Of a stretch of DNA of 64,000 nt, positions 2,460 to 14,504 are shown one piece after another (the stretch's first letter is position 1; each line of letters opens with the position of its first letter). The notes below the pieces were generated by a model. The model was not told the origin of the DNA. It made no database searches and worked only from the letters and a program-made list of their open reading frames with translations. The stretch is from an uncultured Pelagibacteraceae bacterium (GTDB lineage: Bacteria > Pseudomonadota > Alphaproteobacteria > Pelagibacterales > Pelagibacteraceae). The stretch spans positions 1 through 64,000 of the forward strand of contig CACBYC010000004.1 of assembly GCA_902543405.1 (NCBI GenBank). The letters are read 5' to 3'. Position numbers and translations under genes: made by a program.

Positions 2460-3399
2460 TTTGAAAGACAAAATTTTTTTAGCGGGGCATAATGGTTTGG
2501 TTGGTTCAACAATTTATAAATCTTTAAAAAAAAGAGGGTACAAAAAAATACTAACTATAAGTAGGTCAAAGCTTGATTTATTAGATCAAAATAAAACTTA
2601 CAATTTTTTAAAAAAAAACAAACCAAAAATTGTAATCATCGCTGCTGCTAAGGTAGGTGGTATAAAAGCAAACAACCAATTCAAAGCAGATTTTATAAGT
2701 GAAAATTTAACTATTCAAAATAATCTTATTTTAGGATCATTTAAAAATAATATAAAAAATTTAATTTTTTTGGGATCTAGTTGCGTATATCCAATAGACT
2801 GTAAAAGACCTATTAAGGAGGAATATCTGCTTACTGGTAAGTTAGAAGAAACAAATGAGCCATATGCAGTGGCTAAAATTGCGGGGATTAAATTATGTGA
2901 AAGTTTGAATCATCAGTATGGCACAAATTATTTATGCATAATGCCAACAAATACTTATGGTCCTGGCGATAACTATGATTTAAATACCTCACATTTTATT
3001 CCAGCATTATTAAAAAAAATTTACCTAGCTAAATCTTCAAACAAAAAGTTCATTAACCTTTGGGGCACTGGTAAACCCAAGAGAGAATTAATATATGTAG
3101 AAGACCTAGCTTCTGCTGTTCTTTACTTTATGAAAAAAAAAACTAAACATACCTTAATAAATATTGGTACATCAGAGGAACTTACAATAAAAAAAATTGC
3201 CAAATTAATTTTAAAAAGTTTAAGTATTAAATTAGAAATAAAATTTGATGGAAATAAAAACTTTGATGGAGTTAAAAGCAAAGTTCTAGATGTCTCGCTT
3301 GCAAAAAGTTATGGTTGGAAACCAATGATAGATATAGAAAAAGGGGTTCAGCTTACCTTTAAGGATCTTAAGAATAAAATTAAAAATAATGAAATCTAA
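2452..3399 (+). CDS. fcl: GDP-L-fucose synthase
   Basis: Epimerase/reductase that converts the Gmd product to GDP-L-fucose using NADPH. Visible motifs are G12-x-x-G15-x-x-G18 (AGHNGLVGS), the SSCVYP segment (108-113) with catalytic Ser and Cys, and Y138-x-x-x-K142 in EPYAVAK. The 315 residues match the usual size. The gene overlaps gmd by 8 nt and the next membrane protein gene by 11 nt, so it lies inside a coupled polysaccharide operon. It is also known as wcaG. The pair predicts fucose, or a derivative of it, in the surface glycan. Confidence 0.95.
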
Positions 3400-4570
3400 T
3401 GTTCTTGAAAATAATATTATAGTAATCTTTGTTTTATTATTAATTTCATTTGGTATTTATTTAAGTTTTATTGGAGGCTATGGATCTGATGAAGATACAC
3501 TACCAATGATATACGTGTTTGAGTCAAAGTATTATAGTGGTACATTTGTTTCCTCTAGATTTACAGGAAATCCTGTAGCAGAACTAGGGATAGGTTTTTT
3601 AGCTTTCTTCTTTGGAAGTTTTGCAGCTAATCTAGTAACATTTTTATTTTTGGTATTTGGTTTAATTTTTTTTTTCTTAACTCTTAATAAAAAATTTGAA
3701 ATTAACGAATTATTTTTATTCTTATTGTTATGCCTTACTAGCCCTATTCTTTTTTTTGATAACATTGAACCAATAGATTATTCTTGGGCTTTATTATTTT
3801 TTTCTTTAGGATCATATTTTTATAGTAAGAAAATTTTTGAATTATCAATCTTATTTTTTGCTTTTTGTATTGGTACGAGAATAAATTATCTATTATTTAT
3901 ATTAGCTTTTATTATTTTTTTTGAAAATGATAGTAAAATGTATTTTAAGAGAAAAATTATTATATTTCTTTGTTCATTTACTATGGGTGGATTATTTTAT
4001 TTACCGATTTGGTTTGACAATAGCTTTGATTTGTCTTGGTTAACTGCAGCCAGGCCAACAGATCAAGGATTACTTGGTTTAGCATCAAGATTTCTCTATA
4101 AAACTTATATCGCAACAGGTTATTTGGTATCTTTAATTTTGTTTGTCATTTTATTGAAATATTTTTCAAAATTAAAAAGAATTAAAAATAAAACTTTAAT
4201 TTTTTCATTAATTTTATCAAACTTATTAATTTTTTTTTGGATACCAGCAGAATATTCATATTTACAAATATATTTAATTGCTCTTTTGTATATAATTTAT
4301 GAATTAAGAATAAAAAAATTATTATATTTGATTTGTATTTGCCATTTTTTTTCTTGGTTTGTCTCAATTTCTTTCCTAGAAATTAATCATAAAGATAATA
4401 CATATTGCGGTCCAAAAAATGCGATATCTGCCAAGATTAAATTTCAAGTAGAAAGAGGATATCTTTCAAATTATTTAAAAAGTAGAGAAAAAATTAGTTG
4501 TTGGGTACACGGGAAAGATGAGAGAAGTTTAAAAATTTTAGAGGGAAAATCTTTGAAAAAACAAAAATGA
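3389..4570 (+). CDS. GT-C-like integral membrane protein, putative glycosyltransferase
   Basis: A 393-residue polytopic membrane protein with about ten hydrophobic segments and a soluble C-terminal tail (about 330-393). Right after the first membrane segment there is an acidic S33-D-E-D-T37 cluster at the start of an external loop, the place where GT-C glycosyltransferases carry their catalytic acidic pair. I do not recognise the exact family. The inferred role is sugar transfer from a polyprenyl-phosphate donor at the periplasmic face. The start overlaps fcl by 11 nt and the end overlaps the next gene by 4 nt. Another membrane role in glycan assembly cannot be excluded. Confidence 0.5.
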   Translation: MKSNVLENNIIVIFVLLLISFGIYLSFIGGYGSDEDTLPMIYVFESKYYSGTFVSSRFTGNPVAELGIGFLAFFFGSFAANLVTFLFLVFGLIFFFLTLNKKFEINELFLFLLLCLTSPILFFDNIEPIDYSWALLFFSLGSYFYSKKIFELSILFFAFCIGTRINYLLFILAFIIFFENDSKMYFKRKIIIFLCSFTMGGLFYLPIWFDNSFDLSWLTAARPTDQGLLGLASRFLYKTYIATGYLVSLILFVILLKYFSKLKRIKNKTLIFSLILSNLLIFFWIPAEYSYLQIYLIALLYIIYELRIKKLLYLICICHFFSWFVSISFLEINHKDNTYCGPKNAISAKIKFQVERGYLSNYLKSREKISCWVHGKDERSLKILEGKSLKKQK

Positions 4571-6228
4571 TTTTATCGTTTGCTTCAAATTTATTCATTA
4601 CATGCATAATAATTGGATTTTCATACCTTTTTAAAAATTTTTTACTATCACAGAAAAATGACATTACGAATATTGACTTTATATATGGAATTTTTTTCAT
4701 AATTATTTTATCGATAATTGCAAATTTTCTAATCCCTCTAAAATACTTTAAAATTATAATTATTCCTTTTGGAATATTTTTTTTTTTTATAGGTATTATT
4801 AAAAAAAAAATTAAAATAAATTTTTTTGTAATTTCATTTTTTTTATTTTTCTTCTCATTTTTTACATATTGGAATGGAAATAATGCTGATTCACCAGTAT
4901 ATCATTTTCAAACTATAATTTGGGCGTATGAATATAAAATTCCATTTGGCTTAGCAATTTTGGATTGGCACTATGCCTTAAATTCCGTTTGGCATATTTT
5001 TTTAAGTTCATTTTCTACAAAAATTTTTAATTTTAATTCAATTTATGTAATCAATTTTATCCCTTTTGTTTTTTTATTTGGAATTTCATTTTATTTAAAA
5101 AATAATAATTTAAGTACATTAGCTTTAAAGTTTTCATCTATATTTCTTTTGCTCTTTTCTCTAATACATCCTTATAAAAATGGAATAATTTTTAATCATT
5201 TAGGTAATCCAGAAGTTGATACAATGGCGATGATTTTTTTTATTATTTGTGGATATCTATTTCTTTTATTTTTTGAAAATCAGAAAAAGAGTCAACTAAA
5301 TATATTTATACAACTCTCAATTTGTTCATTGATGTGTATATTAATTAAATTAAGTTATATAGGAGTAATATTCTTCCCACTTGTAATTTTATTTTACAAA
5401 ATAAATTTTAAAATATTTTATGGTAGAGCCTTTATTATTTCGTACATTTTTGTAAGTTTATGGTCATTAAGAAATTTCTTTTTAAGTTCTTGCTTAATTT
5501 TCCCTATAAAAAATACTTGTATTAAAACATCTTGGTCATTAAACAATGAGCAAGTATTATTTTATCTCAATCAAACTAAAAGTTTTGCAAGAGATACTAG
5601 ATTAAGAGCCAAATATACAGATTTTGAACATACTATCTATAGTCATGACTGGATAATTCCTTGGGTAAAAGATTATCTTTTTAACGATGCTTTCTTAGGG
5701 ATTAGCATTATCTTGATCTTAATATCAATTTTATCATGTTTAGCTTTTAATTATTTAATACCAAAAAAAAAATTGGGAATTCTTGATTTCAATCTCTTTA
5801 AGATTTTAATTATTTTATTTTTATTAAATTTTTACCTTTGGTTTCAAAATCCTGAGATAAGATTTGGTTGGGGAATTTTTATATTCTTTTCATGTGTATT
5901 ATTTAGTATAGTAGTAAAACAAATTGATTACTTTAAAATTTTATTAAATTATTTAAATTATATTAAAATTTTATTAATTTTTTTAATTTGTTTAAAAAAT
6001 TTAAGTAACTTTGAACTTAAAAATATCTACACACCCTTTGAAAAAAATTTTAATTACTCGAATATCGTACTTTTTAAAGAAATAAACGGATTTAAAGTTT
6101 ATAGGAGTAACGATTGGAAATGTGCAGAGTTTGAAGAGATTTGTATAAACAAACCAAAAAAAAATTATAATTTCCAAAAAAGGTTTAATCATATATTTAT
6201 TAGCACTAGTGATATCAATACATTTTAA
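4567..6228 (+). CDS. Large membrane protein, GT-C-like (LIC_10190-like), copy A
   Basis: A 553-residue polytopic protein with about 12 hydrophobic segments. After the third or fourth segment it has D108-S-P-x-Y-H113 followed by a W...GLAILDWHYALNSVWH stretch. A second landmark is RNFFLSSCLIFPIKNTC (302-318). Both recur in the convergent gene at 10897-12561, so the two are paralogues. From memory they resemble an uncharacterised membrane family (named LIC_10190 in some annotation) with a D..LYH motif found in polysaccharide clusters. Function is unproven; a polyprenol-dependent sugar transferase is my inference. The start overlaps the previous gene by 4 nt. Confidence 0.5.
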   Translation: MILSFASNLFITCIIIGFSYLFKNFLLSQKNDITNIDFIYGIFFIIILSIIANFLIPLKYFKIIIIPFGIFFFFIGIIKKKIKINFFVISFFLFFFSFFTYWNGNNADSPVYHFQTIIWAYEYKIPFGLAILDWHYALNSVWHIFLSSFSTKIFNFNSIYVINFIPFVFLFGISFYLKNNNLSTLALKFSSIFLLLFSLIHPYKNGIIFNHLGNPEVDTMAMIFFIICGYLFLLFFENQKKSQLNIFIQLSICSLMCILIKLSYIGVIFFPLVILFYKINFKIFYGRAFIISYIFVSLWSLRNFFLSSCLIFPIKNTCIKTSWSLNNEQVLFYLNQTKSFARDTRLRAKYTDFEHTIYSHDWIIPWVKDYLFNDAFLGISIILILISILSCLAFNYLIPKKKLGILDFNLFKILIILFLLNFYLWFQNPEIRFGWGIFIFFSCVLFSIVVKQIDYFKILLNYLNYIKILLIFLICLKNLSNFELKNIYTPFEKNFNYSNIVLFKEINGFKVYRSNDWKCAEFEEICINKPKKNYNFQKRFNHIFISTSDINTF

Positions 6229-6231
6229 AAA

Positions 6232-8568
6232 ATGAACAAAAAAAAAATTTTACATGTAACAGAGGAGTTATCAAAAAAAAACTATAGTATTTCATACCTA
6301 ATTTTTTTTCTATCTAACTTTTTATCTAATAAAATTTCAATGAATTATGATGTCCTTACTTCAAGTATTCAAACCCAAGTTTTTAAAAGATCAAAAAAAA
6401 TATTAATACTTCCCTATCTTTTCTTAAAGGATATTTTTGATAATAACGTAAAATTAAAAAATTATATTTTAAAATACGATATAATTCATATACATGGAAT
6501 ATGGAGGTCTATAAATCTTTTATCCATATATTTTTGTGTGAAATATAACAAAGTTTTTTTTATTCATCCACATGGAATGTTACTAAAAGCTGCATTAAGA
6601 AATAAAGGTAACTTAAATTATTTTACAAAATTAATAATACTAAAAATTTTTCGTATGTTATTTGAGAATAGATTGAAATTTATATCCATTACTCTTCCAG
6701 AAACAGAATCTATTAAGTATTTTTTTAAAAAATCAAAAATTTTTTTTATACCCAATCCTGTACCATCACTTGAAAAAGATAGTAAATATATTTCTCATTC
6801 ACTAAATAAAAGATTTGTGTATTTTGGAAGAATTCATCCAATAAAAAACATTGATCTACTAATTGAAGGCTTTAAAAATGCCAATATTTCTGAAGATTGG
6901 TCATTAGAAATTTATGGAATAAATGATGACACAAAATATTTAAAAAAAATAAAAAAACTCTCAAAAAGCCATAAAAATATAAAAATAAGAAACCCGGTAT
7001 TTAAAAGAGAAAAACAAAAAATAATCTCCAATTCTTGGGCAAATGTATTACTTTCAGATAGTGAAGTTTTAAGCTTATCGGTATTAGAATCAGCAAGTTT
7101 AAATGTGCCAAGTCTTGTAAATAAAGATATACAAATTGACCAATTTACAAAAAATGAGGGTGTAATCACTTCTTTAGATGTAAATATTATTTCAAAAAAA
7201 ATTGAAGAAATTTCTAATTGGTCCAAGTCCAAACGAATATTAAAAGGTGAAAAATTAAATAGTTTTGTGAGAAATAAATATGGTATTGAAAATATTTATA
7301 AAAAATATGAACCATTGTATAAAGATGACAAAGTAGAATACAAAAAAAAATTAAAAAAATTTAATTTAACAAATTTATTTTTGAGTTCAATTTTTGATAG
7401 TACTTTTGTACAAATATCACTTTCTTACGTTTTTAACTTGATGATACCAACACTTGTAATGCTTACACTCACTTTTAATAAACAACATGAACTTGCAGCA
7501 GATGTAGGTATAATTTCAAGTTTGATTATCACAATAACCCAGATTCTTTCCAGTAATATGAGATCGTTAATTATCTCAAGAAATGGTTTTAAATTAGCTG
7601 AAAAAACTATCTCTTTTAGGATTATTATTAGTTTTTTATTGATATTTTTAATTTATATAATTTATCCCACTCAAGAAATAATTATTTTTAAAAATACAGA
7701 TATAATAGTTTTAATAAGTTTGTTGATATTATCACAATGGATCCATGAAATTATACTTTCAATAAGAGAGTTAAAAAAAGAAACTTTTTATTTCATATTA
7801 TATAACTTTATTAACGCTTTTTTTTCGATAACTTATTTAATTTCAATATTTTATTTTTTTAATTATTTTAAAATATTTATTATTTTTCATTTAGGAATAA
7901 TCCTATATTTTATTATTTTACATATTACTTCAAATAAAATTAACGTTATAAATAATAATTTCTTTACAAATATTTTTAAAAATCTGAGTTCGTGGGCTTT
8001 TTTTTCCTCGTTTTCAACAGTATTTAGTAGTTTATTTTGGAGATTAGTCATTTATTCTTATTATGATAAAGCTGTAGCATCAATATTATTTTCATCATTT
8101 GCAATAGGTTCATTTCCTGGTACTGCATTTAATATAGCAATTGGGCCAACATACATTAAGAATAAATTATACTTAAATACTCTTTTAAAAAGAATTATCA
8201 CATTCCTATTTTTAATAATATTTGCCCTTTCAATAATTTCACTCTCAATAATAATTTTTGATAAATATAAAATTAATTTTGATGAAAACTTATTTTTTTA
8301 CTCATTAAGTTTCTCTTTATTAGGTTCTTTTATGATGACACAAGCCATGTTTATGAGACAAAGAATTGTTCAAAGTAATATAAATTTGAGTTTAGCTATT
8401 TTTAAAGTGGATGTTGCATATGGAATTTTTATTTCCTTAATTTGTCCTTTTTTTTATTGGGTAGGTGACATATTTGCAATAAGTTTAACTTTTTTTGCAG
8501 GCTCGTTTTCGGCACTCATAATTTATGGATTCTTTTATAAATCGTTTAAAAATCAAATTATTAAATGA
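6232..8568 (+). CDS. Fusion: GT4 glycosyltransferase + Wzx/MATE-like flippase
   Basis: One 778-residue frame that looks like two proteins. Residues 1-365 are a GT-B, GT4-type transferase: HIHGIW (87-92), IHPHGM (111-116), the R200-I-H-P-x-K205 nucleotide-binding region, and the E278-x7-E286 motif in SEVLSLSVLE. A charged linker (about 363-380) leads to about 12 membrane helices (385-778) laid out like polysaccharide exporters of the Wzx class, including a GSFPGTAFNIAIGPTY segment. I see no internal stop or frameshift. The fusion would couple addition of a sugar on the cytoplasmic face to translocation of the lipid-linked unit. It follows the previous gene by 3 nt and overlaps the next by 4 nt. 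Confidence 0.75.
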   Translation: MNKKKILHVTEELSKKNYSISYLIFFLSNFLSNKISMNYDVLTSSIQTQVFKRSKKILILPYLFLKDIFDNNVKLKNYILKYDIIHIHGIWRSINLLSIYFCVKYNKVFFIHPHGMLLKAALRNKGNLNYFTKLIILKIFRMLFENRLKFISITLPETESIKYFFKKSKIFFIPNPVPSLEKDSKYISHSLNKRFVYFGRIHPIKNIDLLIEGFKNANISEDWSLEIYGINDDTKYLKKIKKLSKSHKNIKIRNPVFKREKQKIISNSWANVLLSDSEVLSLSVLESASLNVPSLVNKDIQIDQFTKNEGVITSLDVNIISKKIEEISNWSKSKRILKGEKLNSFVRNKYGIENIYKKYEPLYKDDKVEYKKKLKKFNLTNLFLSSIFDSTFVQISLSYVFNLMIPTLVMLTLTFNKQHELAADVGIISSLIITITQILSSNMRSLIISRNGFKLAEKTISFRIIISFLLIFLIYIIYPTQEIIIFKNTDIIVLISLLILSQWIHEIILSIRELKKETFYFILYNFINAFFSITYLISIFYFFNYFKIFIIFHLGIILYFIILHITSNKINVINNNFFTNIFKNLSSWAFFSSFSTVFSSLFWRLVIYSYYDKAVASILFSSFAIGSFPGTAFNIAIGPTYIKNKLYLNTLLKRIITFLFLIIFALSIISLSIIIFDKYKINFDENLFFYSLSFSLLGSFMMTQAMFMRQRIVQSNINLSLAIFKVDVAYGIFISLICPFFYWVGDIFAISLTFFAGSFSALIIYGFFYKSFKNQIIK

Positions 8569-9356
8569 TCTATTCATCTGATATTGGTTATAAAATTTCA
8601 ATTATTACACCAACTTATAATAGTCAAAAAACAATTGAGGAAAATATAAAATCAGTACTAAGTCAAAAATTTACTAATTGGGAACAAATTATTATTGATA
8701 ATTGTTCTACAGATAAAACTCTAGAAATAGTAAATAAATTTAAAAATCGCAAAATTAAAATTTTCTCTGAAAAAGATAAAGGTATTTATGATGCATTAAA
8801 TAAAGGAATTAAAATCTCAACAGGAAATATAATTTCAATTTTACATTCTGATGATTTTTTCTTTAACAATAATTCATTAAAACTGGTTGAAAAAAATTTT
8901 AGACTTAACAATTGTGGAATAATATTTGGAGATTTAATCTACTTAAAAGAAAACAATAAAAATAAAATATTTAGATATTGGCAATCATGTGATTTTAAAA
9001 AAGGTAGTTTTTTTAAAGGCTGGAGTCCACCTCACCCTAGTTTTTTTGTAAAAAAAGAAGTTTATACAAATTTTGGTTATTATATAAGAAAATTTGGTAA
9101 TTCAGCAGATATAGAATTAATGTATAGATTCCTTGAAAAGAAGGAGATTAGTTCAAAGTATATTAATTCAATATTTGTTGCTATGCGTTATGGAGGAGCA
9201 TCTAATAAAAGTTTTTTAGCAATAATTAAGCAAAATATTAATACAATCAACATTTTAAAGATTCAAAAAAACCCAATAAAGATTTGTATTTTTATTATTT
9301 ATAAATTTTTTAATAGGCTAAATCAAATATTTAAAAGACCAATGAAAAAGAGATGA
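8565..9356 (+). CDS. Family 2 glycosyltransferase (WcaA-like)
   Basis: A 263-residue cytoplasmic GT-A enzyme. The N-terminus ISIITPTYNSQKTIEENI is the standard GT2 start, with the nucleotide-binding D45 in IIIDNCSTD and the metal-binding S95-D-D97. GWSPPHPSFF in the second half is typical of the WcaA branch seen in O-antigen and colanic-acid clusters, and is probably an acceptor-site element. The sugar donor cannot be told from sequence. The gene overlaps both neighbours by 4 nt, so it is co-translated with the flippase fusion and the ligase. Confidence 0.85.
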   Translation: MIYSSDIGYKISIITPTYNSQKTIEENIKSVLSQKFTNWEQIIIDNCSTDKTLEIVNKFKNRKIKIFSEKDKGIYDALNKGIKISTGNIISILHSDDFFFNNNSLKLVEKNFRLNNCGIIFGDLIYLKENNKNKIFRYWQSCDFKKGSFFKGWSPPHPSFFVKKEVYTNFGYYIRKFGNSADIELMYRFLEKKEISSKYINSIFVAMRYGGASNKSFLAIIKQNINTINILKIQKNPIKICIFIIYKFFNRLNQIFKRPMKKR

Positions 9357-10900
9357 ATAACACCTCAACAAATAAATATTTAGATAACTTTCAAATATTT
9401 TTATTTTCTTGTTTGCCATGTTCTTTAGTTATTGGTCCATTAATTGCAGAGATTATAATAAATATAATTTTAATTTTTTTCTTAGTTGATATTGTTCAAA
9501 ATAAAAATTTTAAAATATTAAAAAATAAAATTTTTTACTTATTTTCCTTCTTTTACTTGGTATTAATAATTTCTCTTATCAAATCTGATATCTTTGCTGA
9601 GTCAGGATTAAATGTTTTTTCTTATTTAAGGTTTTTTTTATTTGCTTTTGCAGCATGTGAATTGTTAAAAAAAAATGAATTATATATTAAGTTATTTTAT
9701 ATATGCTTATCATTAACAATTTTTATTGTTGTAAGTGATGGCTATCTACAATTCTTTCACGGAGAAAATCTTCTAGGCTATCCAAAGTATAGACCTGATA
9801 GAATTTCTGGTTTTTTTGATGATGATTTAATAATTGGTAGTTATTTACTAAGAAATATTCCAATATTTATAGGTCTAACCTTCTATCTCAAAAATTCTTT
9901 TAGATATCTTTTTTATTTTAATCAAACGTTAATATTATTTACGTGTATTTTAATTTTCTTATCTGGCGAGAGGGCCTCATTTTTTTTGATGACATTATTT
10001 TTATTTATTATTATTTCACAAATAAATTTAAAAAAAAATTATGTTATTATTTTTTTCTCTCTGGTTGTTTTATCAACTATAACAATTTTATTTTCAAACC
10101 AAATTATAAAAGATAGATATATTTCCCAATTAAAATTCCAAATTTTTGGTGAAAAATTATTGAGATATTATTCACCAATGTTCAATACCGCATATAAAAT
10201 GTTTATCGATAAACCTTTTTTTGGATTTGGACCTAAGGCGTATAGATATTACTGTTCGGATGAAAAATATGTGAATTTTTATACGGATGGGAAAACAACT
10301 ATTGACAATACTATTATAAAGCCTGATTTCGGTTGGAAGGTTTTAGAAAATTATAAAATTAATAAGATTTATATAAGTGCTGGAGATTATGTAGAAAAGG
10401 GGTCAAAAGTATTCTCTTATTATTTTGTTTCAAAGGATAAAAGCGATTTTGAAGTTTTTGATTATTTTTCAAAAAAGGAAGGAATAGTAAAAAAAATCTA
10501 TATTAAAGAAAAATACGTAAACAATACTGCATTTGCAAAAATAGAACCCTTAAAATCACCTAAGAGTTATGTTTATTTACCAAATTCTTGTAATACACAT
10601 CCACACAATACTTATTTACAGCTATTGTCAGAAACAGGTATGTTTGGCTTTTTAATAGTATTTTCAGTATTTATTTATTTATTATTTAACGTTTTAAAGA
10701 ATTTAATAAATATTTATTTTTTTAATAAGAGATCACAGAGTGTGTTTGAAATCTGTTTGCTAGCAAATTTTTTAATCATTTTGTGGCCACTTACAACAAG
10801 TGGGAATTTTTTTAATAATTGGTTAAATATTTGTAATTTTATTCCATTAGCATTTTATTTATTTATAAAACAAAAAAACCACAAGCATTTAAAAAATTAA
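9353..10900 (+). CDS. O-antigen ligase/polymerase family protein with biotinyl/lipoyl-like insert
   Basis: A 515-residue inner-membrane protein with about ten helices. It has the family signature GFGPKAYRY (291-299) and HPHNTYLQLLSETGMFG (416-432) that bracket the periplasmic loop of WaaL/Wzy_C proteins, which transfer or polymerise undecaprenyl-linked glycans. Between these motifs, where the loop is usually short, about 100 extra residues are present. Residues 335-397 read like a barrel-sandwich (biotinyl/lipoyl or HlyD-type) domain, with ISAGDYVEKGSKVF then KKEGIVKKIYIKEKYVNNTAFAKIE. No biotin or lipoyl attachment lysine is obvious, so a structural or binding role is more likely. Last plus-strand gene of the coupled run. 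Confidence 0.8.
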   Translation: MNNTSTNKYLDNFQIFLFSCLPCSLVIGPLIAEIIINIILIFFLVDIVQNKNFKILKNKIFYLFSFFYLVLIISLIKSDIFAESGLNVFSYLRFFLFAFAACELLKKNELYIKLFYICLSLTIFIVVSDGYLQFFHGENLLGYPKYRPDRISGFFDDDLIIGSYLLRNIPIFIGLTFYLKNSFRYLFYFNQTLILFTCILIFLSGERASFFLMTLFLFIIISQINLKKNYVIIFFSLVVLSTITILFSNQIIKDRYISQLKFQIFGEKLLRYYSPMFNTAYKMFIDKPFFGFGPKAYRYYCSDEKYVNFYTDGKTTIDNTIIKPDFGWKVLENYKINKIYISAGDYVEKGSKVFSYYFVSKDKSDFEVFDYFSKKEGIVKKIYIKEKYVNNTAFAKIEPLKSPKSYVYLPNSCNTHPHNTYLQLLSETGMFGFLIVFSVFIYLLFNVLKNLINIYFFNKRSQSVFEICLLANFLIILWPLTTSGNFFNNWLNICNFIPLAFYLFIKQKNHKHLKN

Positions 10901-12561
10901 TTTTTAACCCAAAAAATCTTATAATTAAGAAAATTTCTGGATCTTATATTTTCTGTTTTGTAATAAGTGCAAGGCGCAGAACCATACATGCATTGTTTTC
11001 CATTACTAAAATAATAGAATCCATTTTTAGATACATATATTTTTTCAAACTTATCAGTTGCTATTATCTTAGGCCATATTGAAGAGTTATTTAAATTTAT
11101 GTTGTTAAGTATTCTATCTAAATTTTTTATTGAAAATCCTGTCATCGACAAAAATATACATATAAATGCTAAAAATCTTATTTTTTTAATTTCAAGTGAA
11201 TTGATTTTATTTTGCATGAATATAACAAAAGTTAACAGTATTAAAGAGTACAAAAAAGATAATCCAAATCTATATAATGGAAATTTCAAGAACCATAAAA
11301 GACAGCAGGTGAGTGAAAAAAAAAAAATGAAAAAAAGACTAGATTTATCTAATACAACTTCAGATCTTACTTTAGATTTTATATCTTGAAAAATAATAAA
11401 AATAATTAATAAAAAAATTATAACAAGAAAAGGAGTTATTTTTTTTAAAATATAAATTAAATGGTTTTCTTTCCAGATTTTTAGCCAATTAAAATTTTTG
11501 TTAAAATCTTTAAAATTTTTGAATTCTCCCTTTTGATCGGGCCATCCCTTTGACCATGCCTCGCTTACATATGCAGTATCTTGTAATTGTTGCTCATTAT
11601 ATATTTTAAATGATTTTATGCATGTATTTTCAATAGGATATAGCGCGCACCCACTAATTAGAAGTGACTTAAGAAATATTGAGGAGATAAATATTATACA
11701 AATATAAGTTGCACTATTTTTAAACAATTTAATTTTATTATTTAGTCTGAAAAATAAAAAAAAGGGAATAATTAAATTCAGAATCATAAATAATTTAAGA
11801 CCTGCTAAAAAAAATGATATTAATGAAATTTTGATAAAAAAATCATTTGATATAACGTTTTTTAAATTTACTGAGAGTAACGATAAAATTAAATATATAA
11901 AATATATATTTGCAACAGCGTCATTTCCATAACTACTATAACGATTAAATGAGTAGATCGAAAAGACAAAAGTAATTATGTTTACCAAAGATAAAATTTT
12001 ATTTTTTTTTTTTATGTAATAATTTATTTTGTCGTAAATAAAGTATAAAAAAAAAGAAAAAATTGAAGCAATAGAAATTGTTATAAAACTTATGTTAAAA
12101 TAATAAATGTTATAAAGTGCTGAAAAATTTTGAATTATTGATCCATGAGCAAATCTAAAATGAATATTAACTGATCCTAGTATAATTTTGTTTTCATTAA
12201 TTATATTAATAATTGGAATATGATATAAACCTCCATCTGGTCTATTTATATTTGAATATAAGACAAGTCCTAATGTTAAAGTTGAAACGATAATTATATA
12301 AAAATAATCTGAATAAACTTTGTTTTTTATAGATAAGTACAAGCCAATTAAAAACACAAAAGAACATATTTCTTTATTTAATGGTGCAAAAAAATTTATT
12401 AATACAGCAACAAAAGTTAAAAAAATAATTCCTAATAGTGATTTCTCTGAGTTGCTAATTGTAGATAAATAATAACTAGAGAAAATTAGCTTACAAAAAA
12501 AATTTCCATAGGCTATTATTACTAAAGAACTTAATATCGAGGCAACTAAAATTTCTAACAT
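10897..12561 (-). CDS. Large membrane protein, GT-C-like (LIC_10190-like), copy B
   Basis: A 554-residue polytopic protein, paralogous to the gene at 4567-6228. It shares D109-G-G-L-Y-H114 in the same place, SGCALYPIENTC (303-314) aligned with SSCLIFPIKNTC of copy A, the N-E-Q stretch after it, and a similar short Cys-containing C-terminal tail. It runs against the cluster and overlaps the end of the ligase gene by 4 nt. Membrane glycan enzyme is inference only. The divergence is high, so the pair probably arose by an old duplication or separate acquisition rather than a recent copy. Confidence 0.5.
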   Translation of the reverse strand: MLEILVASILSSLVIIAYGNFFCKLIFSSYYLSTISNSEKSLLGIIFLTFVAVLINFFAPLNKEICSFVFLIGLYLSIKNKVYSDYFYIIIVSTLTLGLVLYSNINRPDGGLYHIPIINIINENKIILGSVNIHFRFAHGSIIQNFSALYNIYYFNISFITISIASIFSFFLYFIYDKINYYIKKKNKILSLVNIITFVFSIYSFNRYSSYGNDAVANIYFIYLILSLLSVNLKNVISNDFFIKISLISFFLAGLKLFMILNLIIPFFLFFRLNNKIKLFKNSATYICIIFISSIFLKSLLISGCALYPIENTCIKSFKIYNEQQLQDTAYVSEAWSKGWPDQKGEFKNFKDFNKNFNWLKIWKENHLIYILKKITPFLVIIFLLIIFIIFQDIKSKVRSEVVLDKSSLFFIFFFSLTCCLLWFLKFPLYRFGLSFLYSLILLTFVIFMQNKINSLEIKKIRFLAFICIFLSMTGFSIKNLDRILNNINLNNSSIWPKIIATDKFEKIYVSKNGFYYFSNGKQCMYGSAPCTYYKTENIRSRNFLNYKIFWVKN

Positions 12562-13492: not shown

Positions 13493-13610
13493 TGCCTGGT
13501 GATTATTGCGAAAGGGTAATACCCGATCCCATTCCGAACTCGGAAGTCAAGCCTTTCTGCGCCGATGGTACTTTGTCTTAAGGCATGGGAGAGTAGGACA
13601 TTGCCAGGCT
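13493..13610 (+). rRNA. rrf: 5S ribosomal RNA
   Basis: The 5' end (GCCTGG from 13495) pairs with CCAGGC at 13604-13609 to form the terminal helix. The conserved core CCCGATCCCATTCCGAACTC and the later GATGGTA and GGGAGAGTAGGAC elements of bacterial 5S are all present. Exact ends are estimated. No 16S or 23S gene is adjacent: the 5' side is the polysaccharide island, so the 5S is either separately transcribed or the distant tail of the rRNA operon. An open frame that starts inside this gene is an artefact. Confidence 0.95.
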
Positions 13611-13619
13611 ATAACCCAG

Positions 13620-14504
13620 ATGAAAAAATATATAATTGTAACTGGTGGCGCTGGGTTTGTTGGGTCAAACCTCATTGAACTATTAGTCAAAAAAACTCAA
13701 TATAAAATAATAAGCTTAGACAATTACTCCAGTGGATCGAGGAAAAATCATATTAAATCTAAAAGAATAAAATATATAAAAGCACATACATCTAAAATTT
13801 TTAAAAAACTTTCAAATTATAAAAAAAATATAGACTCAATTTTTCACTTTGGAGAATTTGCTAGAATACATCAAAGTTTTGATAATTTTGATCAGTGTTT
13901 TGACTCAAATGTAAAAGGAACAAAAGAGGTTTTTAAATTTTGCTGTGATAATAAAATAAAATTAATATATTCAGCAACATCTGCAAGTTTGGGAAACAAA
14001 GGTAATGATAAAAATTTGTCACCTTATGCTTTTACAAAAACTATTAATCTTGAACTTCTAGAAAATTTGAAAAAATGGTTTAATTTAAAATATGAAATTA
14101 TTTATTTTTATAATGTTTATGGTGAAAAACAAATTGGTTCTGGTAAAATGGCAACTGTAATTGGTATCTTTGAAAATCAATATAAAAAGGGGCAACCACT
14201 CACCATAGTAAAACCTGGAACACAATCTAGAAGATTTACGCATATCTCAGATACAGTTAAAGTATGCTATGAAGCATGGAAAACAAATAAATGTGCACAA
14301 TATAGTATTTCCCATAAAAAATCTTATAAAATAATAGATGTTGCGAAAATGTTTGGAAGTAGGACAAAATATTTACCCTCAAGAAAAGGTGAGCGATATG
14401 CATCAGCTTTGACAAATATTTCAATGAATAGAAGAGTTTTTAAAAGATTTGGAAAAATAAGTTTGAAAGATTATGTAACATCGTTTATTAACTCTAAAAA
14501 TTAA
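13620..14504 (+). CDS. NAD-dependent nucleotide-sugar epimerase (UDP-glucose 4-epimerase family)
   Basis: A 294-residue extended-SDR enzyme with GGAGFVGSN at the N-terminus (cofactor loop), SATSASLG (catalytic Ser/Thr) and the active-site Tyr and Lys in SPYAFTK. The C-terminal half holds RRFTHISD, which fits sugar-nucleotide binding. The frame continues upstream into the 5S rRNA, so the ATG at 13620, ten bases after the rRNA, is the real start. The substrate is probably UDP-Glc/UDP-Gal or a uronic acid, but this is not resolvable by eye. Its place right after the 5S suggests it is part of the stable flank of the hypervariable region, possibly read through from the rRNA transcript. Confidence 0.85.
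   Translation: MKKYIIVTGGAGFVGSNLIELLVKKTQYKIISLDNYSSGSRKNHIKSKRIKYIKAHTSKIFKKLSNYKKNIDSIFHFGEFARIHQSFDNFDQCFDSNVKGTKEVFKFCCDNKIKLIYSATSASLGNKGNDKNLSPYAFTKTINLELLENLKKWFNLKYEIIYFYNVYGEKQIGSGKMATVIGIFENQYKKGQPLTIVKPGTQSRRFTHISDTVKVCYEAWKTNKCAQYSISHKKSYKIIDVAKMFGSRTKYLPSRKGERYASALTNISMNRRVFKRFGKISLKDYVTSFINSKN

Follow-up and report, generated by a model that had tools for sequence, protein, structure and literature searches.

The gene at positions 9353-10900 of the 64,000-nucleotide stretch of Pelagibacteraceae DNA analysed here (the window) encodes an O-antigen-ligase-type membrane protein (Wzy_C) of 515 aa, and, almost certainly, two conserved cysteines ahead of the HPHN motif of this protein enclose an uninterrupted barrel-sandwich domain of the lipoyl type. 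That the domain is what it appears to be, that it descends from a pyruvate dehydrogenase (PDH) type of lipoyl, or swinging-arm, domain and that it is not modified are three statements that we consider, taken jointly, to be probable. A docking or lid role of the insert is put forward as a tentative proposal. A search of open-licence papers found no report of an O-antigen ligase with a lipoyl-type domain; the enzyme family and the domain are each known, and it is their combination that was not met in that literature. Features are on the forward strand unless noted.

The ligase and the site of insertion

The whole protein matches the Wzy_C family (PF04932) with an E value of 3.7e-14 and 53.2 bits, against a curated cut-off of 31.7. 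An AlphaFold2 model built from an alignment of 60 ligases (mean pLDDT, 88.4; pTM, 0.83) has the overall fold of the O-antigen ligase WaaL (PDB 7tpg/7tpj; CAZy GT121, PF04932), with a VIA-align Z score of 22.5 over 375 residues of 7tpg. Two functional residues of WaaL are matched in the alignment to 7tpg. Arg207 (9971-9973), an arginine in 58 of the 60 ligases, is the counterpart of WaaL Arg191, which binds the phosphate of undecaprenyl-pyrophosphate (Und-PP) (PMC10920833). His418, in the HPHN motif (10598-10609), is the counterpart of WaaL His313, for which acceptor activation has been proposed (PMC10920833), and both histidines of the motif are found in all 60 ligases. The pattern H[NSQ]x9GxxG is present as HNTYLQLLSETGMFG at residues 418-432. 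In a profile alignment that is uncertain at this point, the column of the second Und-PP-binding arginine, WaaL Arg265, falls on Tyr273 (10169-10171) in the window ligase. Tyrosine occupies this column in all seven inserted ligases; the other 53 have histidine (33) or tyrosine (19). Because the Arg265 column holds Tyr or His, binding of the second phosphate by SAR11-type ligases may be unlike that in WaaL, as far as an uncertain sequence alignment can indicate. Wzy_C also includes polymerases and oligosaccharyltransferases, and so the ligase activity of the window protein, transfer of an O-chain from Und-PP to the lipid A-core of the outer membrane, is a prediction; an oligosaccharyltransferase (9rmk) is the PDB entry that best matches the profile of the family.

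Unlike WaaL, the window ligase has a barrel-sandwich domain in the loop preceding its catalytic-type histidine. The Wzy_C match breaks into two pieces that skip the middle of the protein, and the gap is occupied by a weak Biotin_lipoyl match (residues 321-386), with an E value of 0.014 for the whole protein and 8e-4 for the segment alone. A preliminary description of this DNA had proposed that about 100 residues split the motifs GFGPKAYRY (residues 291-299) and HPHNTYL (residues 416-422), and the 60-ligase alignment bears this out. Cys301 (10253-10255) and Cys413 (10589-10591), each a cysteine in 7/7 inserted ligases and in 48 of the 53 others, are separated by 111 aa in the window protein (residues 302-412; 10256-10588), by 107 to 112 aa in six other SAR11 ligases and by 9 to 37 aa in the remaining 53. 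A first survey of relatives found that nearly all ligase matches end at about query residue 306 and restart at about 410. The additional residues lie directly ahead of the HPHN motif, and C301 and C413 could plausibly form a disulfide that closes the domain at its base. An ordinary ligase loop is ruled out by the 9 to 37 residues found at this site in 53 relatives. A chimeric or otherwise artefactual assembly is likewise ruled out, since six more genomes have the insert at exactly this site.

Another ligase carries a different insert between the same cysteines. The ligase of G351 (L146:8331-9962; 544 aa) has a 148-aa segment there (9222-9665 of that locus). This segment has no detectable similarity to the barrel-sandwich insert (hhalign probability, 0.2%), it matches nothing in Pfam and nothing significantly in the PDB, and none of 339 genomes yielded a relative. 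The G351 protein shares its family and its Cys-Cys insertion site with the window ligase, but its insert is unrelated and its core does not group with the clade of inserted ligases. Given this unrelated segment, the Cys-Cys loop has taken up large inserts more than once.

Fold and kinship of the inserted domain

The domain extends over about residues 313-404 (about 10289-10564), as judged from the span of structural matches, the Biotin_lipoyl match and the modelled strands; the bounds proposed earlier (10265-10570; residues 305-406) were nearly right. The two half-motifs quoted in the preliminary description, AGDYVEKGSKVF at residues 343-354 and EGIVKKIYI...NNTAFAKIE at residues 376-398, are present as cited, as are the two flanking ligase motifs. 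Pfam profiles assign the segment to the lipoyl/biotinyl group. Biotin_lipoyl (PF00364) matches five of the seven inserts at E <= 1, with a best E value of 1.5e-7; the window insert itself scores 19.8 bits (E = 7e-4), slightly below the 22.1-bit cut-off. Biotin_lipoyl_2 also matches five of the seven (best E, 4.7e-7), and HlyD_D23 matches two (best E, 0.04). A search of PDB sequences with only the window insert gave no useful information, and a profile of all seven sequences was required. With that profile, the top matches among all PDB sequences are mainly lipoyl/biotinyl domains, including 1lab (E = 4.1e-5) and 1z6h (E = 9.2e-5); 7b9k reaches 5.6e-13 when summed over three domains, its best single domain having an E value of 0.0027. 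Aligned by hhalign with 32 SAR11 PDH lipoyl domains, the insert profile gives an E value of 8e-15 over 69 columns. This match is beyond chance, because the E value rises to 0.24 for the reversed profile and is no lower than 0.043 in 60 column shuffles. The same controls, together with the weaker scores of AccB and a 441-aa E2 protein (below), rule out low sequence complexity in a Lys/Ile-rich genome as the source of the match. Inserts that are only 17 to 39% identical to that of the window retain its frame and its GD/G turn positions.

The predicted structure leads to the same fold. Averaged over ten-residue blocks, pLDDT within the insert is 76 to 90 for residues 331-380 and 55 to 65 for residues 311-330 and 381-410. 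The model has strands at 334-339, 352-358, 368-372, 377-383 and 394-398, and the domain is contiguous, with no helices between its halves. VIA-align superposes it on lipoyl domains with Z scores of 9.4 to 9.7, at 2.1 to 2.5 A over about 75 residues (for example, 74 residues of 3crk at 2.1 A and 77 residues of 1iyu at 2.5 A). An earlier AlphaFold model built from four sequences had a poor ligase core (pLDDT, 55) yet contained the same domain, with a Z score of up to 10.1. The barrel-sandwich fold advanced in the preliminary description is thus borne out by both the profile searches and the AlphaFold model that it had suggested as checks, with Z scores of 9 to 10 to lipoyl domains in the latter.

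The kinship suggested there, to lipoyl/biotinyl domains and to HlyD, held for the former; HlyD is not the best match, and PDH lipoyl domains are closer. We compared the insert profile with three canonical lipoyl/biotinyl domains of the window's own genome, and the best-domain scores were 34.9 bits for the lipoyl domain of AceE, 10.9 for AccB and 5.8 for the 441-aa 2-oxoacid-dehydrogenase-type E2. Scores for AceF domains of relatives were 37 to 40 bits (top, 40.4), and in genome-wide searches with the insert profile the next-best matches, among those examined, are AceE and AceF lipoyl domains. Judged by these sequence scores, PDH lipoyl domains are the closest kin among the domains compared, and HlyD-family profiles are weaker. 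On the same profile scores, a PDH-type origin of the insert is very probable, and the natural reading is that a PDH lipoyl domain was copied in a SAR11-like ancestor. Lipoyl domains are also present at the N terminus of SAR11 PDH E1 (AceE), where there are one or two of them (seen in L060, L077 and L175).

The insert shares its fold, strand order and profile with the lipoyl domains of PDH E1 and E2 (SAR11 AceE and AceF; PDB 1iyu and 1lab) but, unlike them, does not have a conserved lysine column. Single-sequence alignments place K/E/N/K/N/N/K at the position of the lipoyl lysine in the seven inserts, so the lysine is not conserved. In the window insert, Phe366 lies on this column by the family profile, and Lys363 can be aligned there by single-sequence alignment. 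The earlier statement that there is no obvious modification lysine therefore stands for the family, though not without exception for the window insert, with its alignable Lys363. The location differs as well, PDH lipoyl domains belonging to a cytoplasmic dehydrogenase and the insert to a loop of a membrane enzyme that, by homology, would be periplasmic. In all likelihood, the inserted domain is unmodified.

Carriers of the insert and their genomic surroundings

Searches with the insert profile found seven carriers among about 650 distinct Pelagibacterales genomes, a minimum because many of the genomes are incomplete. Besides the window (G000), the carriers are L041 (AG-365-F10), L043 (AG-900-I13), L042 (AG-453-D05), G628, G593 and G596; three duplicate loci were recognised (L041 = L035 of G090; L043 = L036 of G110; L042 = L040 of G366). 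The survey of related ligases proposed in the preliminary description thus yielded six further SAR11 ligases with the same insert. A sample of 327 genomes from the class contained no inserted ligase apart from that of the window's own genome, and no relative was found in the viral contigs scanned. Matches at L037-L039 were false positives, namely FAD-monooxygenase-like proteins. In a tree from which the insert had been cut out, the seven inserted ligases form one clade (support, 100/99), and so all seven are accounted for by one gain, made by the ancestor of their small clade of SAR11 ligases. Sequence change is faster in the insert than in the ligase core. For the closest pair only (P0002/P0003), dN/dS is 0.28 in the insert and 0.13 and 0.09 in the two core parts, which indicates, for that one pair, that the insert is constrained, though less than the enzyme core.

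The SAR11 O-chain cluster sits between the 16S-23S and 5S genes (PMC11898729). A 5S rRNA gene, the boundary of this cluster in that study, lies at 13495-13609 (RF00001, 96.7 bits), which places the ligase region at the 5S end of the cluster. GC content is mostly 20 to 24% along the stretch and 29% over the gmd/fcl genes, and the low GC agrees with the published description of the cluster (PMC11898729). The listed TTG start of an epimerase open reading frame (13506-14504) crosses the 5S rRNA gene, and translation likely begins with the ATG at 13620. Neighbours of the ligase gene encode GDP-mannose dehydratase-like and fucose-synthetase-like enzymes, glycosyltransferases and two LIC_10190-family membrane proteins; no exporter-like match was found among the neighbouring genes scanned. 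One LIC_10190-family protein, of 553 aa (4567-6228; NF047510, E = 3e-40), is encoded upstream of the ligase, and the other, of 554 aa, is encoded on the reverse strand at 10897-12561 (NF047510, E = 6e-34), convergent with the ligase gene. A membrane protein of 393 aa (3389-4570), which has no Pfam or NCBIfam match, may be a GT-C-type glycosyltransferase. At 6232-8568, a 778-aa protein combines an N-terminal family-4-type glycosyltransferase with a long polytopic C-terminal part that has no Pfam match; it is perhaps a fused flippase, and L132 has a 775-aa homologue.

We compared six insert-bearing islands that have enough flanking DNA with 21 pntA-side islands whose ligase is ordinary or otherwise different. 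Homologues of the 393-aa protein occur in five of the six and are best matches in 0/21 of the others (Fisher, 7e-5); for the 553-aa protein, the counts are 6/6 and 0/21 (Fisher, 3e-6). Because the islands are not independent samples, these values describe an association by cluster type and are no demonstration of function. In the L141 (G245) island, the 393-aa and the 553-aa protein are both present as in the insert-bearing islands, and no ligase was detected in the 20 kb examined. Four of the seven loci encode, close to the inserted ligase, a second membrane protein of 436 to 483 aa (L041:6529-7977, L131:8408-9766, L130:7473-8780 and L042:3106-4497; Wzy_C E = 5e-9 for the L131 copy). This protein, possibly a polymerase, has no counterpart in the window.

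Possible roles of the domain

Being small, stable and able to dock on several protein surfaces, lipoyl domains are well suited to a docking or lid role. In the model that we favor, the insertion site would face the periplasm, by homology to WaaL, and the domain would hang over the catalytic mouth on two flexible linkers. It would work without a cofactor, as a docking or lid module on the acceptor side of the ligase, holding a partner beside the acceptor-activating His418. This partner might be the growing glycan, the lipid A-core acceptor or a membrane protein encoded by a neighbouring gene, and holding it may tune ligation to this type of O-chain. The preliminary description had suggested that the insert may dock an acceptor or an export partner. 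Docking of an acceptor or other partner would fit the position beside the histidine and the flexible linkers; our analysis identified no docking partner and gave no pointer to an export channel. More broadly, we tentatively propose that a PDH lipoyl domain was captured into the active-site loop of the ligase, no longer has a lipoate site and now serves one O-chain type as a docking or specificity module in the periplasm, and that the Cys-Cys loop is a general slot for SAR11 accessory domains, filled by the barrel-sandwich domain in one case and by the unrelated 148-aa segment of G351 in another.

The main alternative is that the Cys-Cys loop is a permissive spot and that the domain is a tolerated passenger, lacking a specific partner and serving chiefly as a spacer or shield. 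The unrelated G351 segment at the same site, the rarity of carriers and the weaker constraint on the insert than on the core would all agree with this, but a passenger would not be expected to keep its frame and turn positions at such low sequence identity, nor to show a dN/dS below 1, and we regard this explanation as rather unlikely. Alternatively, the domain could be a glycan-recognition module that binds and selects the O-chain or its lipid-linked repeat unit. Its co-occurrence with one O-chain gene set, seen in the 393-aa and 553-aa counts above, speaks for such a role; however, the islands are not independent, so that inheritance of entire clusters from a common ancestor may account for the association, and our searches met no carbohydrate-binding precedent for the fold. 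We therefore think glycan recognition improbable.

Two further explanations take the resemblance of the domain to known modules more literally. Membrane fusion proteins of the HlyD/AcrA type also have a barrel-sandwich that is unmodified and periplasmic, the insert being periplasmic by homology, and the Biotin_lipoyl_2 matches in five of the seven inserts would suit an adaptor piece linking the ligase to an export channel. In those adaptors, however, an alpha-hairpin splits the two halves of the barrel, whereas the insert is contiguous with no such hairpin. HlyD_D23 is found in just two inserts, at a best E value of 0.04, and the top scores among the compared domains belong to PDH lipoyl domains; with no exporter-like match among the scanned neighbours, an adaptor function is very unlikely. 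Least credible of all is that the insert works as a carrier of lipoate or biotin, a reading for which the lipoyl-type fold and the alignable Lys363 could be cited. The variable lysine column, with Phe366 on it by profile, argues against it, as does the location: lipoate and biotin ligases are cytoplasmic, and the insertion site is periplasmic by homology.

How WaaL-type ligases choose donor and acceptor and position them beside the catalytic histidine is unsettled. A natural insertion at that spot, together with relatives that do not have it, offers a clean comparison for asking whether an accessory domain can tune ligation. The setting is one of the most abundant bacterial groups of the ocean, SAR11, within which the group that bears the insert is rare, and the insert lies in a gene cluster in which strains differ. 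Reuse of a carrier domain of central metabolism in the assembly of envelope polysaccharide is unusual.
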